From: Lycocorax pyrrhopterus obiensis
Taxonomy: Eukaryota > Chordata > Aves > Passeriformes > Paradisaeidae
DNA: 64,000 nt
Direction: 5' to 3'
Assembly (NCBI GenBank): GCA_014706295.1
Contig: JACSVZ010000038.1
Coordinates: forward strand, 3,410,001-3,474,000
The notes beneath the pieces were generated by a model that worked only from the letters and a program-made list of their open reading frames with translations, made no database searches and was not told where the DNA came from. This document shows, in pieces, positions 27,101 to 63,365 of the stretch. Within the stretch, counting starts at the first letter, position 1, and every line of letters starts with the position of its first letter. The position numbers were made by a program, and so were the translations under genes.

Positions 27101-29601
27101 CCCCCAAAAAAACGTTTTCAAGAACTGTAAAGAGTTATTGAGTATTCTAATCACAGCCCTTTGAGATCATCAAGTCCAGCTGTTAACCCAGCACTGCCAA
27201 GCCCACAACTAACCATGTCCCCAGATGCCACAACCACACATTTTTAAATCCCTGCAGGAAGAGGGACTCCACCACTGCTCTGGGGAGCTGTGCCAGGACT
27301 GGAAAACCCTTTTGGGGAGGAAGCTCTGCCTAATATCCAGTCTAAAACTCCCCTGACAGAACTTGAGGCCATTTCCTCTCATCCTGTCCCTTGTTCCCTG
27401 GGAGCCCACCTGGTTCCACCCTCCTGTCAGGGAGCTGGGGAGAGTGAGAAGGTCCCCCCCGAGCCTCCTTTTCTCCAGGCTGAGTCCCCTCATCTACTTC
27501 TCTCAGGCTTGTGCTCCAGCACTTTCCCCAGCTCTGTTCCCTTCTCTGGACACACTCCAGCCCCTCAATGTCTTTCTTCACCTTCTGAAGAAAAATCAGT
27601 TGGATTAACTTCATTGTCTTGAAAATGTCATTGAAAATAATTACATTATGAGATCCAAGCTGCCTCTGTTCTACTAAATAAATCTTTCCACATTTATGCA
27701 GAAACAGAAAGTAATAAAAACGTATAACCTAGAGCAGGCTGGCTTTATTTTTTTTAGCTGTGTGGCAGGATAGTAATAAACAGCCAAAGCCAACCCAAAC
27801 AAGAAGCACATTATAATGGTCAAAATATTTGTCTGTATCTGCTGAATTCATAAATATAATATGAGGCACAGTATTTCGTATATTTATTTTGCTTAAGTTA
27901 ATTACTTAATTGCACAGTATGGACTAGGCCAATCACACTACTTTCACATGTTATTATCAACAGAAAAACTGTAGTATTCCAGGTTTACATGGTGTAAATA
28001 ATGCTTCTCTCTAAACAGGACTGAAAAGCTTCTGGAGACGTTTTACATATTACTTAATAAACGTTCCAGTGAGAATGCTCCTTTAGCTAATTATTTAGTT
28101 GTGCTTGAGCAAAGCTGTATCTGAATAACTGGTTTTTGCTGGATTTGTTTTCTTCCAGCATATGGCATAGGCCTTCTTGTGACCTTTGTTGCCTTGGCAC
28201 TGATGCAGATGGGCCAGCCTGCTCTCCTCTACCTGGTGCCCTGTACTCTCCTCACCAGCTTCGCGGTGGCCCTTTGGAGAAGGGAGCTTGCCATGTTCTG
28301 GACGGGCAGCGGCTTTGCGGTGAATACCAGTTTGATATGAGTGTCTTCAGGAAATACTAATATTATAAAAACCTAACTAGAATTAAAGTTGAGTAAAATA
28401 TTGCAGTATTATCACACAAACACAAAGATTTTGGTTTTGCTTGATTATTTGCTTTTTTACATACTTTTTTTTGCCTCAGTAAGGTTTTCTGGTTTTTGCA
28501 GTGTTTATGGCCACTTAAATCAGACTAGTGAAAAGTAAAGTAGACTTCATCTATCCTTGGTTCTGCCAAAATGTTACTTGTTTGATCTCTCTTGGAAGTA
28601 TCAGTAGTAGTAAAAGGTTACAATATTATATAAAATGTGGAGTTTAGTACTGTATAAAATATACCCTTAAAATATATTCTTCATATTTTTTCATAGCTTA
28701 CTGTTTATGGAGGTGGAAATGTAGTTCAGTATAGTAAATTATCACTTTGTTTCACTGTGCTGAAAGTGAAATTAACTTGTTTCAAAAAGGAATAATTTCT
28801 ATTGTGATGCATGATTTTAGTTTTTTAAATACTTACTAGAAGGCCAAATCTGTCAAGCTAGAGGTTCCCCCAATGAGTTCTGTTTTATTATTCAACTATT
28901 TGTGATAACCTTCACAAGCTTCCACTAGAGAAATGAATTTAATTGTTAGAGAAATATTTGAGGTCATCTGAAATGTTACGAAAAAGTTGCCAGTTCTTGT
29001 ACACTAATAGTAAAGGTGGGCAGAACTGGACAGTGGCCAAGGACCAAGTGCCTGTTGCTGCCTTATCAGCAGAGCACATCTGAAACTGGTGAGGAACAAT
29101 CACTCAGAAAGCAAATACTTTTCTGGAAGGAAAAATTCCCCTGGTGTCCTATAAAACACAAAGAAAGGATAACTGTATGCATCTGTCCACTGCTGGAGAA
29201 TGATAACAGAGATGATGGACCTTTAATCTTCATCTTGTATGACCATTACCTCGGATAACTGGACACAATAGTTCTTGTTTTCCATCATTCTGACTGTGAT
29301 CTTCCATTTACAGAAAGACCTACCTCAGCCTCCCGTGGTGATAGCTCCTGTCAACTGCCCTCAGCTTCCCCAAAACAGCAGTGTACCAGCCTCTCAACAA
29401 GACACAGAGCAAATGACCAATCCCACCCTCCACGTGAAGGAGCTGCACGGCTCCACCTCGGCTGAAGAGGAGCTGGCTGATGCCAGCGCAAAGACAGACC
29501 GGTCAGAAATCTCTGTTGCCCAGAGTGAGGAACCAACTGCTCAGAATAAGGATGACCTTGAAAGCAAATGCCTAAATGCAGAACAAAACCAGCTGGAATA
29601 A
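6121..29601 (+). CDS. SPPL2B: SPPL2B, signal peptide peptidase-like 2B (complete, 15 coding exons)
   Basis: Fifteen exons with consistent phases sum to 1794 nt, 597 aa plus TAA; human SPPL2B is about 592 aa. Order: signal peptide (1 to about 20), lumenal protease-associated domain (about 55-150, with an NCT glycosylation site in exon 3), first membrane span (about 171-190), a charged loop, then the remaining spans. The catalytic aspartates are in VYD (D356, exon 10) and GFGD (D418, exon 12); the PAL motif is at 469-471 (exon 14). The tail (503-597) is hydrophilic and low in complexity. By family knowledge it is a GxGD intramembrane protease of the endosomal and plasma membrane that cuts type II membrane-protein stubs such as those of TNF and BRI2. 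The paralogue SPPL2A is excluded mainly by synteny and close match to the 2B sequence I remember. Confidence 0.96.
6351..6405 (+). repeat. 12-bp GC-rich tandem repeat
   Basis: Four to five copies of GCCGTGGCCGAG with single changes, inside the CpG island just after SPPL2B exon 1. Confidence 0.85.
10577..10750 (+). mobile_element. CR1 LINE, 3' end
   Basis: Reads as the CR1 3' UTR in plus orientation (CACAGGTTGTCCAGAGAGGT, then GACCTTTAAAGGTCCTTTCC) and ends with the CR1 tail ATTCTGTGATTCT. Strongly 5'-truncated. Confidence 0.9.
12745..12792. repeat. ATAC/AT microsatellite
   Basis: About 48 bp of TACA and TA repeats in SPPL2B intron 1. Confidence 0.9.
13917..14424 (-). mobile_element. CR1 LINE 3' end plus about 28 bp of shared flank (copy A)
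   Basis: From about 13945 this is a CR1 3' end in minus orientation (CATAGAATCATGGAATGG, GGGACCTTAGAGATCATCTA). The preceding bases 13917-13944 are not CR1 but recur beside the copy at 40949-41478. The first 344 bp differ from that copy at only five positions; the rest diverges and lacks about 45 bp present there. Confidence 0.88.
14809..14928 (+). CDS. SPPL2B: SPPL2B coding exon 2
   Basis: 120 nt between acceptor TTTCAG and donor GTAAGT. It codes VYCEYGMVHVLSEKG and the conserved DYCILFNSQWAHLPHDL, the start of the lumenal protease-associated domain. Confidence 0.95.
14929..17097 (+). other. SPPL2B: SPPL2B intron 2
   Basis: About 2.2 kb of AT-rich sequence. I see no exon, recognisable repeat or RNA gene. 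Confidence 0.6.
17098..17280 (+). CDS. SPPL2B: SPPL2B coding exon 3
   Basis: 183 nt after TTTTTTTCAG, before GTAAGT. It codes the core of the protease-associated domain, including RGNCTFYEKVRLAQ and ARGLLIVSRERL. NCT is a glycosylation sequon. Confidence 0.96.
17281..17984 (+). other. SPPL2B: SPPL2B intron 3
   Basis: About 0.7 kb, GTAAGT to TTTCAG. Nothing recognisable. Confidence 0.6.
17985..18074 (+). CDS. SPPL2B: SPPL2B coding exon 4
   Basis: 90 nt, phase 0 at both ends, coding VPPGGNRSQYEEIDIPVALL and SYTDMLDIGK, the end of the protease-associated domain. Confidence 0.95.
18075..18427 (+). other. SPPL2B: SPPL2B intron 4
   Basis: About 0.35 kb, GTAAAC to CTACAG. Nothing recognisable. 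Confidence 0.6.
18428..18567 (+). CDS. SPPL2B: SPPL2B coding exon 5 (first membrane span)
   Basis: 140 nt coding the juxtamembrane segment (YAPNEPVLDYN) and the first span (MVIIFVMAVGTVAIGGYW), then SRDVKK at the membrane edge. Donor GTGAGT in phase 2. Confidence 0.96.
18568..19396 (+). other. SPPL2B: SPPL2B intron 5
   Basis: About 0.8 kb, GTGAGT to TTTCAG. Nothing recognisable. Confidence 0.6.
19397..19539 (+). CDS. SPPL2B: SPPL2B coding exon 6 (charged loop and second span)
   Basis: 143 nt coding the charged loop RYMKHKRDDGAEKHDDE and the next hydrophobic span (VFVVMCCSMLVLLYFFY). The exon ends in phase 1, one base before GTACTC. Confidence 0.95.
19540..20383 (+). other. SPPL2B: SPPL2B intron 6
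   Basis: About 0.8 kb, GTACTC to CCTCAG, strongly AT-rich. Nothing recognisable. Confidence 0.6.
20384..20480 (+). CDS. SPPL2B: SPPL2B coding exon 7
   Basis: 97 nt after CCCTCAG coding YVIIGIFCLAASIGLYSCLS and PFVRRFPLGKC, with donor GTATGT. Confidence 0.95.
20637..20753 (+). CDS. SPPL2B: SPPL2B coding exon 8
   Basis: 117 nt after TTTTTCAG. It codes RIPDNNLPYFHKRPQVRMLL, then LAVFCISVSVVWGIFRNED. The last Gln codon is completed by exon 9. Confidence 0.95.
20754..22233 (+). other. SPPL2B: SPPL2B intron 8 with an old CR1 relic
   Basis: About 1.5 kb. The right part (about 21880-22140) resembles CR1 in minus orientation; the rest shows nothing recognisable. Confidence 0.55.
21880..22140 (-). 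mobile_element. Ancient CR1 LINE fragment
   Basis: Degenerate match to the CR1 reverse-transcriptase region: GCCTTACTGAAGTCTAGATG, then GGTTATCAGGTTGATGAAG and AAATTCATGCTGACAAC, in the same order as in the younger copy at 3847-4245. Edges are unclear. Confidence 0.6.
22234..22315 (+). CDS. SPPL2B: SPPL2B coding exon 9
   Basis: 82 nt after acceptor TTTTTAAG, coding WAWVLQDALGIAFCLYMLK and TIRLPTFK, highly conserved in the family. Donor GTATGA in phase 0. Confidence 0.95.
22316..23121 (+). other. SPPL2B: SPPL2B intron 9
   Basis: About 0.8 kb. A T/G-rich low-complexity patch lies at 22550-22620; otherwise nothing recognisable. Confidence 0.6.
23122..23196 (+). CDS. SPPL2B: SPPL2B coding exon 10 (catalytic YD motif)
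   Basis: 75 nt coding GCTLLLLVLFVYDVFFVFI and TPFLTK. The Asp of VYD (residue 356) is the first catalytic aspartate of the GxGD protease family. Confidence 0.96.
23331..23393 (+). CDS. SPPL2B: SPPL2B coding exon 11
   Basis: 63 nt coding TGESIMVEVAAGPSDSATHE and K, the loop between the two catalytic spans. Phase 0 at both ends. Confidence 0.94.
23394..24758 (+). other. SPPL2B: SPPL2B intron 11
   Basis: About 1.4 kb of AT-rich sequence with nothing recognisable. Confidence 0.6.
24759..24858 (+). CDS. SPPL2B: SPPL2B coding exon 12 (catalytic GFGD motif)
   Basis: 100 nt after acceptor TTCCAAG coding LPMVLKVPRLNSSPLALCD, then RPFSLLGFGDILVP. GFGD is the GxGD motif with the second catalytic aspartate (residue 418). 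Confidence 0.95.
24859..25810 (+). other. SPPL2B: SPPL2B intron 12
   Basis: About 0.95 kb. Contains a run of 11 G at 25690-25700; otherwise nothing recognisable. Confidence 0.6.
25811..25888 (+). CDS. SPPL2B: SPPL2B coding exon 13
   Basis: 78 nt after CTTTCCTAG coding GLLVAYCHRFDIQVQ, then SSRVYFVACTI. Donor GTACGT in phase 1. Confidence 0.95.
26870..27075 (+). mobile_element. Degenerate CR1 LINE fragment, plus orientation
   Basis: Follows the CR1 3' UTR pattern: AGAGGGCTGGAGCACAGGGC, GAAGAGAAGGCAAAGAGGAG, then TTTTAACTAGATATAAGGAA. Heavily mutated, edges approximate. Confidence 0.6.
27145..27600 (-). mobile_element. CR1 LINE, 3' portion, minus orientation
   Basis: Reads in reverse as CR1 3' UTR: CCTTTGAGATCATCAAGTCC, CTCCACCACTGCTCTGGGGA, GAGCCTCCTTTTCTCCAGGC. 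It is a different subtype from the copies at 13945 and 40977. The overlapping open frames here are repeat sequence, not genes. Confidence 0.82.
28159..28319 (+). CDS. SPPL2B: SPPL2B coding exon 14 (PAL motif)
   Basis: 161 nt after TCTTCCAG coding AYGIGLLVTFVALALMQ, then GQPALLYLVPCTLL and WRRELAMFWTGSGFA. QPALL holds the PAL motif that helps shape the active site. Donor GTGAAT. Confidence 0.95.
28320..29313 (+). other. SPPL2B: SPPL2B intron 14
   Basis: About 1 kb of AT-rich sequence between GTGAAT and TTTACAG. Nothing recognisable. Confidence 0.6.
29314..29601 (+). CDS. SPPL2B: SPPL2B coding exon 15 (C-terminal tail, stop)
   Basis: 288 nt after CATTTACAG, ending TAA at 29599-29601. It codes a 95-residue cytosolic tail rich in Pro, Gln, Ser and Glu, with an acidic second half. 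It shares little detail with the mammalian tail I remember, as expected for this fast-evolving part; placement rests on phase and the lack of another acceptor nearby. Confidence 0.88.
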   Translation, partial: KDLPQPPVVIAPVNCPQLPQNSSVPASQQDTEQMTNPTLHVKELHGSTSAEEELADASAKTDRSEISVAQSEEPTAQNKDDLESKCLNAEQNQLE

Positions 29602-51201: not shown

Positions 51202-53472
51202 CCTTAACCACAGCTGAATTGTCAAACAGAGATATTGTTAGCAGAACCCAGGGGCCACAGCACCAATCTGTGCCAGGCTCAGTTACAGCTGAAAAAGAAT
51301 ATTTGGATGTCTGCTAGAAAAAAAGAGGCATATTGGACAGACCCTCCCTTCCTCTCCCCTTTCTCTCTGTTGCCTCACAAAGAAGTGACCTTTTAAAATC
51401 TCTTATCTAGAAGCTTCAGTTTAAAGAGCTGCTGACGCCTCTTGGAAAACAATGAAAAGCTCTTCTGAAACAGGGAGCTGCTTCTCCCTGTGTCCCTTTC
51501 CTCCCCTCTTCCTTTCATTGCTGGATGCATTTACATTAGAAAAGGCTGTTCCTCTGCAGCTTCTCTGAAGTCACAGTCTGATTTACAGCAGTAGTGAATC
51601 GCTGCTGTGGCAGCCCGACCTCTCACAGCACCGTCTGAGTGGACAGGAAGTGACCAGGTGAGATGTTCCTCAGCAGGACAGACTTTGGAACTGAGGAAGG
51701 AAGACCTGTTGAGGGTTTAATACTCTTGATGCTGTTGATACCAAGCCAGAGTAAGTTTGAGAGGTAATTGTGCCTTGCCAAGGCTTTTCTGGTGTCTACT
51801 GTAAATCCGAGTTTCCCAACAGTTAGAGGTTGAGTCCTCAAAAAACTCACTCTGAAGCTGAGGAGCTCTGGACCCTTGGCCAAGAAGGTTGGACTTCTGT
51901 GGATTTCCACTCTGACCACACAGATTGTCTGAGACAACTATAGCCTGCCAGCTGGAACAGAAGGATTGTGTGTCTTCTTCCTGCCTGTGAGGGAGAAATA
52001 TTAATCCAGTAATTTATTACATTTTAGGACCACAGGAAATCAGTGTCCCTCCTTGTCTCATCAGGCTTGTTGCAGATACTAACCTGTCTGAATGATGGAA
52101 TAACAATGGATATTCCAGGCTGGTTTCATTCCTAGTGATACCCAATTGTTGATGATGTGCAAATAAAGGCCAAATATAGTCTGGCTTGTACTAGCAAGAC
52201 TGCAGACAAAAAACCCCCCAAGATAGATGTTTCTATTTTTGGCATTTTTGAATTCACACTTGGAGCACCATATCCCATCTGGGCATCTTCAGTGCATGGA
52301 AAAACATTGACATACTGAAACCAGTCTAGTAAAGGCCAGGAAAAGGTGGAGGCAGGAAAGGTGATGTGAAGGGGCTTTGCTTCTTGTGCAGGACCACTTG
52401 AGGTAAAATACTAGAAGCACCAGCGCCAGTGCTGGCCACAGGGAAGGAGAATCTGCTCATCAGGGTAGCAGCATAGCTATAATTAAAGAACATATCAATT
52501 GCTCTGCATTACTAGGCATTGGGAGCTCTCAGCTAAATGCTGTAGTGGGCTTTGCCACCCACTGTGATTTTATAATTCCTCCAGAATTCCTGCAAAAAAT
52601 GTGGAATAGCATTAGGCTATATGAAACCTCATCCTGGAATCTGCCTCATAAACAACTACAGGGTGAGGTTTATTACTTAGAGAGTTTTAATCTGTATAAC
52701 ATGCACCTTGGGGATATAAGTAGCCTAATGCCAAGACTTCCATAGCCAGGTCAGAGTGGTCCAGCAGGAGCAGACAACAATTTCTGAAGTATTCAATGCC
52801 AGTCAGCTCTGGTCCATTCACGAGCCAGATTCCCAGGCAGGTCTCTCTCCACAGCTGTCTATTCAGACTGCAGTTTCATGTTTAAGGATGTGACTGCAGT
52901 CTAGTAATGTTTGCAGACCTATAAGATTACTGTGAGATAAATGTTGAACTTTACAGCTCAACTGTTCTACCTGTTACTGCAGCTCCATGACTCCTGAGCA
53001 GCACCAAAGCATCCCCTAGTGACACTGGCTGGGTTTAGGATCTTCATGAGGGGTGATGTCTAAGGCAGAAGGAGCAAGCCAAGATGTCAAGCCCCTTGCT
53101 ACTCAGCCTTGCTAAGAGCTGAGGTACCTGTTCACCCTGGCATTGTGGGCAATAGGGCCTTGAAACCCTGCTGCTAAGCATGCCTGGGTTACTGCCTCCT
53201 GAAGAGCAGGTACAGGGTGCTGCTGGGCAGGTTCTGTGCTGCTAGGACACTGGCTCAGCATTCATCCAGAGCCTGTGCAGAACATGGAGATGGAGGCATC
53301 AGGCTGGTTCATGCTCACATCAGCCATGGCCATTGTGAGCACAAACACATTGGACACCACCACTCAGTGGTGGCCTCCTAGGAAGACAGAGAAGGGGAAC
53401 CAGGCAGGGAGGAGCCACTATGGCTGAAGTGTTCAGGTCTTACAACTTGAATCCCCTGACTGCAGCCTGAGG
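51202..53472. other. Intergenic segment upstream of the R2 remnant
   Basis: About 2.3 kb. I recognise no exon or repeat. The left part may contain more retroelement sequence that I cannot identify. Confidence 0.45.
53466..53472 (+). repeat. Candidate left target-site duplication of the R2/28S insert
   Basis: CCTGAGG, repeated at 55245-55251 immediately after the insert. It is only 7 bp and could be chance. Confidence 0.4.
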
Positions 53473-55045
53473 CATAGTCAGGGGACACAGTGTGTATCTA
53501 CCCTTTCCCTTCTTGTGGCAATGCACTGAGAAATATCTTGGCATAAGGGTCGACCCCTGGATTGGTTTTGCTGATTCAGATTTACCTGAGAAAATAGAGG
53601 ATTGGCTCCATCGGATTGGTGATTCACCACTCAAACCTCTTCAGAAAGTCAATATACTGAAGACGTATGCCATCCTGAGATTGATATATCTGGCTGACCG
53701 CACCGAGGTAGGAGCTGGGCTCCTCGAATCCCTTGACCTATTAGTTAGAACTTCAGTCAAGGAGCGGCTTCACCTTCCACCAAATACGTGCGATGCCATC
53801 TTGTATTCGAGTTGTAAGGATGGTGGACCAGGTATCATCAAACTGGCAGTGCTTATTCCAAGCATACAAGCACGAAGATTGCACAGATTGGCTCAGTCTT
53901 TGGATGTGGCTTTGGTAATGTTTTTGACAGAGGAACATCTGGAACTGTTATATGAGAAATTATGGATGTGAGCCGGGGGTGAGAAAGAGTCCATCCTGCT
54001 GATTTGGGAGCCTATTCCAATGTCAGAAAGTCTTGTCAGTGGTGGTGAGGATATATCTGAATGAGAGGTTGGCGTTCCCAAAGTCCGCTACCCAAGACCT
54101 TGTAACTGGTGGAAATGGGAGTTTAACAAGTGGAAACAACTGGTTGCCCAAGGCCACAGTATTGGGAACTTTGAGAATGACAACATCAGTAATGGATGGT
54201 TAACACGGTATAGAGACATACCTCACAGGAAGTTGATAACTGCGTTGCAATTGAGGGCTAATGTCTACCCCACAAGAGAGTTCCTGGCCAGGGGTAGGTA
54301 TGATGACTGTGTTAGATCTTGCAGACATTGCGGTGCTGATTATGAGACATCCGCCCATGTAATCGGGAACTGTCCAGTTACTCAGGAGGTCAGGATCAAG
54401 AGACACAATTCCATCTGTGAGACCCTTAGCCATGAAACTAAGAGAGAGAATTGGACCGTGTTCCAGGAACTGCATATAAGGAACGATGACAAACTGTATA
54501 AACCTGATTTGATCTTCGTTAAAGAGGGAAAGGCATTCGTGGTTGACGTGACAGTTAGATATGAGCACTCTAACTCGTCGCTGAAGGATGCTGCTGTTGA
54601 GAAGGCTAAGAAATATCAGCGCCTTCTCAAACAGATTCAAGACCTTACAAACGCAGCAGACATTGAGTTTGTGGGTTTTCCCATAGGAGTACGGGGGAAG
54701 TGGCATGATAAAAATTCTGAGTTGCTATTGGCCCTAGGTTTCCCTAAGACGAGGTGAGAGAAGACTGCCCGGGCCCTAGCATGCACAGCACTCCTCTCCT
54801 GTGTTGATATTGTACATATGTTTGCAAGCAAAGCTCGTTCAATTGTACCCGCTCAATAAAATATATCTTGGCTGTTTGACATCACTTGGACAGTGGGTTG
54901 GACACACAGGAAGGGTCTGTTCTTTCGCTCATACTGTGTTGCCGACTGCCCATATTTGGGTCTAAATTTTCCAATTTGGACTAGGTGAACGGGCCACCTT
55001 TACTTAACCCAGAAAAGAAACGTATAATTTCATATGTTTATTAAG
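53473..55045 (+). mobile_element. 5'-truncated R2 non-LTR retrotransposon (3' part)
   Basis: The sequence holds the C-terminal third of an R2 ORF and its 3' UTR. Recognisable stretches are EKYLGIRVDPW, LRLIYLADRTEVG and AILYSSCKDGGPGIIKL. A CCHC finger (C-x2-C-x8-H-x4-C, 54320-54373) is followed by a restriction-like endonuclease with KPD (54500-54508) and a second Asp (54545-54547) before VTVRYE. The ORF stop is at 54755-54757 and a 288-bp 3' UTR ends at the 28S joint. R2 is specific for one site in 28S rDNA and is known from birds. The zinc-finger N-terminus and the reverse transcriptase are missing, and two in-frame stops lie in what remains. The left edge is uncertain to about 50 bp. Confidence 0.9.
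53474..54757 (+). pseudogene. R2 ORF remnant with two in-frame TGA codons
   Basis: One frame runs through the whole region, broken only by TGA at 53969-53971 and 54059-54061. There is no frameshift. The two longest intact pieces (53492-53968 and 54062-54754) lie in the same frame and together match the end of an R2 protein: the region after the reverse transcriptase, a CCHC finger, and a restriction-like endonuclease with PD and D residues in place. The breaks plus 5' truncation make it non-functional. Confidence 0.88.
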
Positions 55046-55161
55046 TAGCCAAATGCCTCATCATCTAATCAGTGATGCGCATGAATGGATGAATGAGATT
55101 CCCACTGTCCCAACCTACTATCCAGCAAAACCACAGCCAAGGGAATGGGCTTGGTGGAATC

Positions 55162-55199
<38 letters not shown>

Positions 55200-55240
55200 T
55201 GGTGCTGTGAAGAGACATGAGAGATGTAGAATAAGTGGGA
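55046..55240 (+). pseudogene. 28S rRNA gene fragment, sequence just downstream of the R2 target site
   Basis: Starts TAGCCAAATGCCTCATCATC, which is the 28S sequence immediately 3' of the R2 cleavage point, and follows 28S through GCTTGACTCTAGTCTGG to AATAAGTGGGA. I count roughly a dozen changes from the vertebrate 28S I remember, mostly C to T or G to A at CpG, as expected for unselected methylated DNA. It is a relic, not a working rRNA gene, and no other rDNA is seen in the window. Confidence 0.93.
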
Positions 55241-55244
55241 ATAC

Positions 55245-55251
55245 CCTGAGG
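55245..55251 (+). repeat. Candidate right target-site duplication of the R2/28S insert
   Basis: CCTGAGG, identical to 53466-53472 on the other side. Four bases (ATAC) separate it from the last clear 28S base. Confidence 0.4.
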
Positions 55252-55347
55252 TAACCTTAGCTGGCATGACAGATTTCATCCCAGTCTTGTAATTTTCCTC
55301 CTCTTCTTTTTAATCACAGAGTCCATCTGTAGAGCTGCTCTGAAAGC

Positions 55348-63365
<8,018 letters not shown>

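Follow-up and report, generated by a model that had tools for sequence, protein, structure and literature searches.

A truncated R2 element with a 195-base 28S tail at a single-copy avian locus: a probable off-target insertion of a read-through RNA

R2 normally inserts only inside ribosomal RNA genes. In the 64,000 nucleotides of avian DNA analysed here, the whole of which we call the window, an R2 copy still joined to a piece of 28S rDNA lies at a place which is not a ribosomal RNA gene, and the question is how it came there. A preliminary description of the locus offered two routes, namely reverse transcription of a read-through RNA and capture of a DNA fragment. Our analysis favours the RNA route on account of flanking repeats, microhomology at both ends, 5' truncation and an off-target motif at the implied nick. 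We conclude that the stretch 53526-55240 is probably a dead, 5'-truncated R2 copy together with the first 195 bases of 28S, inserted in a single step by off-target, target-primed reverse transcription of a read-through RNA. The insert is composed as follows.

53526..55045, + strand: 5'-truncated R2 (3' part of the ORF and 3' UTR), from protein and nucleotide matches
53526..53968, + strand: R2 ORF piece, from the truncation to an in-frame stop TGA at 53969, from the ORF list and a structure match
54065..54754, + strand: R2 ORF piece after a second in-frame stop (TGA at 54062), the C-terminal part of the R2 protein
54758..55045, + strand: R2 3' UTR, from alignment to relatives
55046..55240, + strand: 28S rDNA after the canonical R2 cut, 195 bases, from genome matches, Rfam and alignment

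The two ORF pieces share one frame and are divided by the stops at 53969 and 54062. Among solved structures the best matches of both are R2 proteins including R2Tg, with E-values of 5e-55 to 6e-55 for 53526-53968 and 2e-96 to 3e-96 for 54065-54754 (the zebra finch R2 structure 9dou gives 5.9e-55 and 2.8e-96, respectively); in Pfam, neither piece had a match above the cut-off. Both pieces belong to the R2 RT/endonuclease ORF, the 5' part of which is missing. The closest relatives are two copies on contig C1097, which are 93.1 and 92.8% identical to the window R2 and 99.6% identical to each other. Within the alignment to these two, which is about 7% divergent as a whole, there is a stretch of about 150 bases (54123-54275) where all are identical, for which gene conversion or local constraint are possible explanations.

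The 5' edge of R2 is sharp. Against the two closest relatives the homology starts exactly at 53526, and six R2 copies agree with the window at only 18-22 of the preceding 80 positions; over the same stretch, four of those six share 55-78 of 80 positions among themselves. The start at 53473 given in the preliminary description is thus 53 bases too early, since 53473-53525 is not R2. That start seems to have rested on a 7-base repeat, CCTGAGG, at 53466-53472 and 55245-55251, which we reject as target duplication for the same reason. A permissive alignment to one cluster copy extended the similarity by 35 bases further upstream, and was likewise discarded, as its score was reached by 52 of 500 shuffles (52-397 of 500 when the test was run over the six R2 copies). 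About 40 bases before the R2 edge, the host flank carries a perfect 9-base inverted repeat, CCCCTGACT / AGTCAGGGG, within 53453-53484.

On the 3' side, the R2 3' UTR ends with ATTAAG and at 55045/55046 abuts TAGCCAAATGCC, which is 28S on the + strand. The joint falls on the same 28S base as the joints of R2 copies elsewhere in the same genome, and the earlier claim that it lies at the canonical R2 cut therefore holds. So does the assignment of 55046-55240 to 28S: with the tail as query against the same genome, all 195 bases were matched at 90-91% by five places on C1097 and bases 7-195 at 91% by a sixth place on that contig, and a sensitive Rfam scan of 54700-55400 gave LSU_rRNA_eukarya at 155.9 bits (E 5.5e-40). 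The tail terminates at GTGGGA, where eight of nine other 28S copies, those reaching the same point, continue with GGCC; the ninth, L008, departs from 28S after about 150 bases. For the statement that no other rDNA is present, the support is slight: the default Rfam scan of the whole window gave no match and missed the 28S tail itself as well, and the tail query found a single matching place on the window's contig.

As queries against the genome of 1,104,084,848 bases, the left flank (301 bases) and the right flank (230 bases) each matched only their own place, in searches which pass over very common words, and this bears out the description of a single-copy locus. The insertion does not lie within a 28S gene, for the downstream 28S stops at 195 bases and both flanks were found once. 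Of the protein genes reported for both sides, one on the right is confirmed by three ORFs with trypsin domains in Pfam; on the left, ORF 29272-29598, the sole one tested there, had no Pfam match and gives no such confirmation. The insert ends about 70 bases upstream of the predicted splice acceptor of the following exon.

55320..55471, + strand: predicted exon of a trypsin-domain gene (AG acceptor at 55318-55319, ATG at 55348 and GT donor at 55472, by eye)

Further to the right, 55683-56623 is 67-68% similar to a stretch of the cluster locus L042, and an ORF in it resembles what we take to be a CR1 reverse transcriptase fragment.

What happened at the moment of insertion may be read from the sequence around both ends, where we assign these features.

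53490..53496, + strand: GTGTGTA, against GGGAGTA in 28S, 5/7 including T at -20; positions -25 to -19 of the inferred nick
53497..53514, + strand: pyrimidine-rich tract, 17/18, immediately 5' of the inferred bottom-strand nick 53514|53515
53515..53530, + strand: left copy of the inferred target-site duplication, GTGGCAATGCACTGAG, whose CTGAG is common to R2
55235..55250, + strand: right copy of the inferred target-site duplication, GTGGGAATACCCTGAG, whose GTGGGA overlaps the 28S end

The insert is bracketed by GTGGCAATGCACTGAG and GTGGGAATACCCTGAG, an imperfect direct repeat with identity at 13 of 16 positions, and there is microhomology at each joint, with CTGAG common to target and R2 on the 5' side and GTGG common to target and 28S on the 3' side. 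By chance, 13/16 was reached in 144 of 200,000 random pairs drawn from 40-64 kb of the window with 13 offsets allowed, while an unanchored scan of 45-base joints gave an equal score in 17, 39 and 190 of about 1,500 pairs at mismatch penalties of 1, 1.5 and 2. Taken together, these rates make the repeat suggestive rather than decisive. Its mismatches (3/16) also exceed the expectation from the rate of private changes in the R2 part (27/983). At one of them, 55239, the G is also what 28S has, so that the nick could instead be at 53520|53521 with a 10-base repeat (8/10); at this alternative nick the upstream box matches at 0/7.

Regarding the target itself, off-target insertions by R2Tg in human cells are described with 4-5 template-matching bases downstream of the nick, with positions -25 to -19 resembling 28S and a T at -20, and with an upstream stretch that is T/C-rich and then T/A-rich (PMC12222951). 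The PRINT paper likewise describes primer-complementary sequence directly 3' of off-target nicks and, in the part of it considered here, finds that beyond those bases the off-target sites have little identity to the rDNA site (PMC11371274), which makes the upstream box count for less. At 53514|53515, the GTGG downstream of the nick matches the end of the 28S tail and would provide four template-matching bases, a count which depends on the placement of the nick. We estimated how often such features occur over a background of 199,608 positions, for which the window was read on both strands and eight dispersed R2 loci on one, with the site itself included. A box of at least 5/7 with T at -20 was found at 1,355 positions; at least 17/18 pyrimidines, a cut-off chosen after the site had been seen, at 473; and both together at 4 positions. 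With GTGG added there is only one position left, namely 53514|53515. None of the other 23 nick positions in 53508-53531 has the box at this level.

The changes accumulated by the copy bear on its source. Compared with gene-like 28S (L008, C52 and the Rfam model), the tail shows 10 differences in 195 bases (at 55060, 55070, 55076, 55094, 55112, 55127, 55146, 55155, 55203 and 55224), seven of which are CpG decay. The count omits two singletons of L008, two differences beyond the L008 joint, and columns in which the sole disagreement is with C52, a copy rich in indels; it also leaves out 55196, where the window has A as do the Rfam consensus and one other copy and seven of nine others have G, and which would raise it to 11. 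The C52 copy (C52:18300, L041) is uninterrupted 28S across the R2 site on a 24-kb contig, with many small indels like those of an unpolished read. Of the nine other 28S copies, none has any of the three non-CpG changes (at 55070, 55112 and 55224, the last of which falls outside the 28S part of L008), and being private to the window these changes indicate that the tail was not copied from any of the nine. We also reject the decayed 28S copies among those examined as its source, because the non-CpG changes are unshared both ways.

In the R2 part, 27 of 983 columns carry changes private to the window branch. The window copy differs from its best R2 relative almost equally at the three codon positions (25/409, 24/410 and 33/410, summed), as dead copies would, so that both the window copy and the relative must mostly have evolved without selection. 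The stop TGA at 53969 is common to the window and its two best relatives, so the source R2 may already have been dead, with the protein possibly acting in trans. A further copy, copy C, has CGA at this site, and since a single CpG change yields TGA, an independent origin of the stop is possible as well. With a bird substitution rate, per site and year, of about 2e-9, we would guess at roughly ten million years.

The preliminary description also saw in the locus R2 sequence outside its usual site. This is correct, but the locus is not unique, because there is a large cluster on C1097 and a protein search found at least eight dispersed R2 places outside C1097 and the window, which are more diverged than the window copy. 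A search of the eight dispersed loci with the window 28S tail gave no match at E 1e-4. Their 3' ends were readable in five cases, in L033, L034 and L039 by script too and in L036 and L038 by eye, and unreadable in L035, L037 and L040. Four of the five carry 3-6 bases of 28S followed by unrelated sequence, namely TAGCCA in L033, TAG in L034, TAGCC in L036 and TAGC in L039, and L038 has no 28S bases after its R2 3' end. It is known that R2Tg needs 3' 28S homology to start (PMC12222951), and the four short-tailed copies agree with a supposed requirement of avian R2 for a few 28S bases at the 3' end of its RNA. Around L033 and L034, candidate target duplications amounted to 7-base matches only, one of which is of low complexity, and they are uninformative; the two copies are truncated at nearly the same point of R2, to within about 7 bases.

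The cluster (C1097:2216000-2751000; L002-L008, L010-L032, L042 and L043) extends over more than 500 kb and contains dozens of R2 pieces, some of which have long open frames reaching 608 aa, with decayed 28S intermixed and numerous near-identical pairs lying on opposite strands; no second R2/28S cluster was found among the matches listed for the same genome. We tabulated the R2 3' ends of the cluster in 25 rows, which include overlapping loci, and identified R2 5' ends visually. Some of the 3' ends run into long 28S, others into 28S of about 150 or of 10 bases, and others abut an R2 5' end with nothing between. The form with about 150 bases is seen in L008, L017, L018 and L032 (at two places, around C1097:2314000 and 2664500), where this length of 28S leads into CTATGACTCTCTTAAGG and an R2-like 5' end. 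CTATGACTCTCTTAAGG is 28S from just upstream of the R2 site, and the CpGs of the preceding 28S of about 150 bases are largely intact. In L027 and L028 ten bases of 28S stand between the R2 3' end and an apparent R2 5' end, and in L010-L016, L029, L030 and L031 the two are joined directly. These head-to-tail joints could result from template jumping between R2 RNAs or from rDNA deletion.

For the window insert, the one-step scheme which we consider probable would run as follows. An R2 in a transcribed 28S gene would give rise to an RNA extending at least 195 nt into 28S. The R2 protein would nick the bottom strand at 53514|53515, in a target which partly resembles the R2 upstream box, and the primer end CCAC would anneal to GUGG within the RNA's 28S portion. 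Synthesis of cDNA would then proceed back through 28S and R2 and break off inside the ORF, after which the cDNA end would be joined to the far side of the break via CTGAG, with duplication of the target. The inserted copy would afterwards have decayed as neutral DNA.

The main competitor is the second route of the preliminary description, in which end joining, helped by short homologies at both sides, placed a broken-off fragment of R2-occupied rDNA in a double-strand break. End joining can yield arbitrary ends in R2 and 28S and microhomology at both joints, and the large R2/28S cluster is present as a source of DNA; but neither the flanking repeat nor an R2 off-target motif at the implied nick is expected from it, and no copy among the nine others compared has any of the three non-CpG changes seen in the 28S piece. 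On balance we hold this capture to be unlikely. Still less likely, in our judgement, is mobilisation of the R2-28S RNA by another LINE such as CR1 acting in trans, in the way that processed RNAs are mobilised by mammalian L1. Such an event would likewise leave a target-site duplication and a truncated 5' end, and a stretch resembling CR1 lies about 430 bases right of the insert. Against it, the joint has no poly(A), the upstream box, with its T at -20, is in keeping with the R2 protein, and birds have few processed pseudogenes.

Two other explanations have to be weighed, both of which we regard as very improbable. It might be supposed that a 28S fragment arrived first and that R2 then entered it at the canonical target, the more so as some R2Tg reads in human cells are described as mapping to likely pseudo-28S (PMC12222951). 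The sequence upstream of 53526, compared with the C52 copy, is neither R2 nor the upstream part of 28S, and to remove that part a deletion would have had to stop precisely at the edge of the flanking repeat, which leaves this order of events very little room. The joint might also be an assembly chimera, considering that assemblies are described as unreliable for R2 and rDNA repeats (PMC13188248). A misjoin would copy an existing repeat, whereas here the 28S changes are absent from nine copies, the R2 has its 27 private changes and the flanks are each found only once; we give the chimera the smallest chance of all.

Returning to off-target insertion by R2 itself, the locus may be set beside systems already described. 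It resembles avian R2 (the R2-A clade, with zebra finch R2Tg) in that its protein pieces match R2Tg structures and its joint is at the canonical 28S base; it differs in being truncated, with two in-frame stops, outside 28S and with a 195-base tail instead of a full 28S gene. A second likeness is with LINE 3' transduction, in which a read-through RNA takes the downstream flank to a new site. Here too a downstream flank would have been moved, although this flank is 28S and no poly(A) is found. With the off-target products of engineered avian R2 in human cells, as described in PMC12222951 and PMC11371274, it shares primer-matching bases downstream of the nick, an upstream box having T at -20, and a pyrimidine tract. 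Those products prime on the first 4-5 nt after the R2 end, whereas the window insert would have used a position about 190 nt inside 28S, and it would be a natural germline event.

Kojima et al. (2016) described avian R2 copies flanked by fragmented 28S or by non-rRNA sequence (PMC5035012), which are like the window copy as R2 remnants outside an intact 28S gene with a 28S piece attached. In the part of that work considered here they are explained as remnants of once-active elements, while the joint and motif in the window point to off-target reverse transcription. The same source describes fish R2 families with 28S downstream sequence at the R2 3' side; there the 28S is part of the 3' UTR across a lineage, and in the window it is 195 contiguous bases in a single insertion. 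In titles and the openings of abstracts, mostly of freely accessible papers, we found none that describes an R2 insertion of natural origin, off target and with a long tail of 28S. Dispersed avian R2 with 28S fragments is already published, and what seems to be new is a probable natural off-target event with a 195-base tail.

The insert is a natural record of one R2 RNA which likely extended into 28S by 195 nt or more, and it bears on the 3' end of R2 RNA, whose natural position is stated in a 2025 structural paper to be not known and expected in 28S (PMC12222951). Whether, more generally, natural avian R2 RNAs run at least 195 nt into 28S and R2 primes deep in this tail, giving germline off-target 28S 3' transductions into single-copy genes, is a proposition to which we assign about even chances. 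The locus and the eight dispersed copies form a genomic set for testing the published off-target motif. Avian R2 proteins are under development for transgene insertion in human cells, and the locus together with those eight copies shows what the long-term remains of off-target events possibly look like. If the more general proposition is true, the host genome would hold a fossil record both of where R2 RNAs ended on their 3' side and of where R2 inserted off target.
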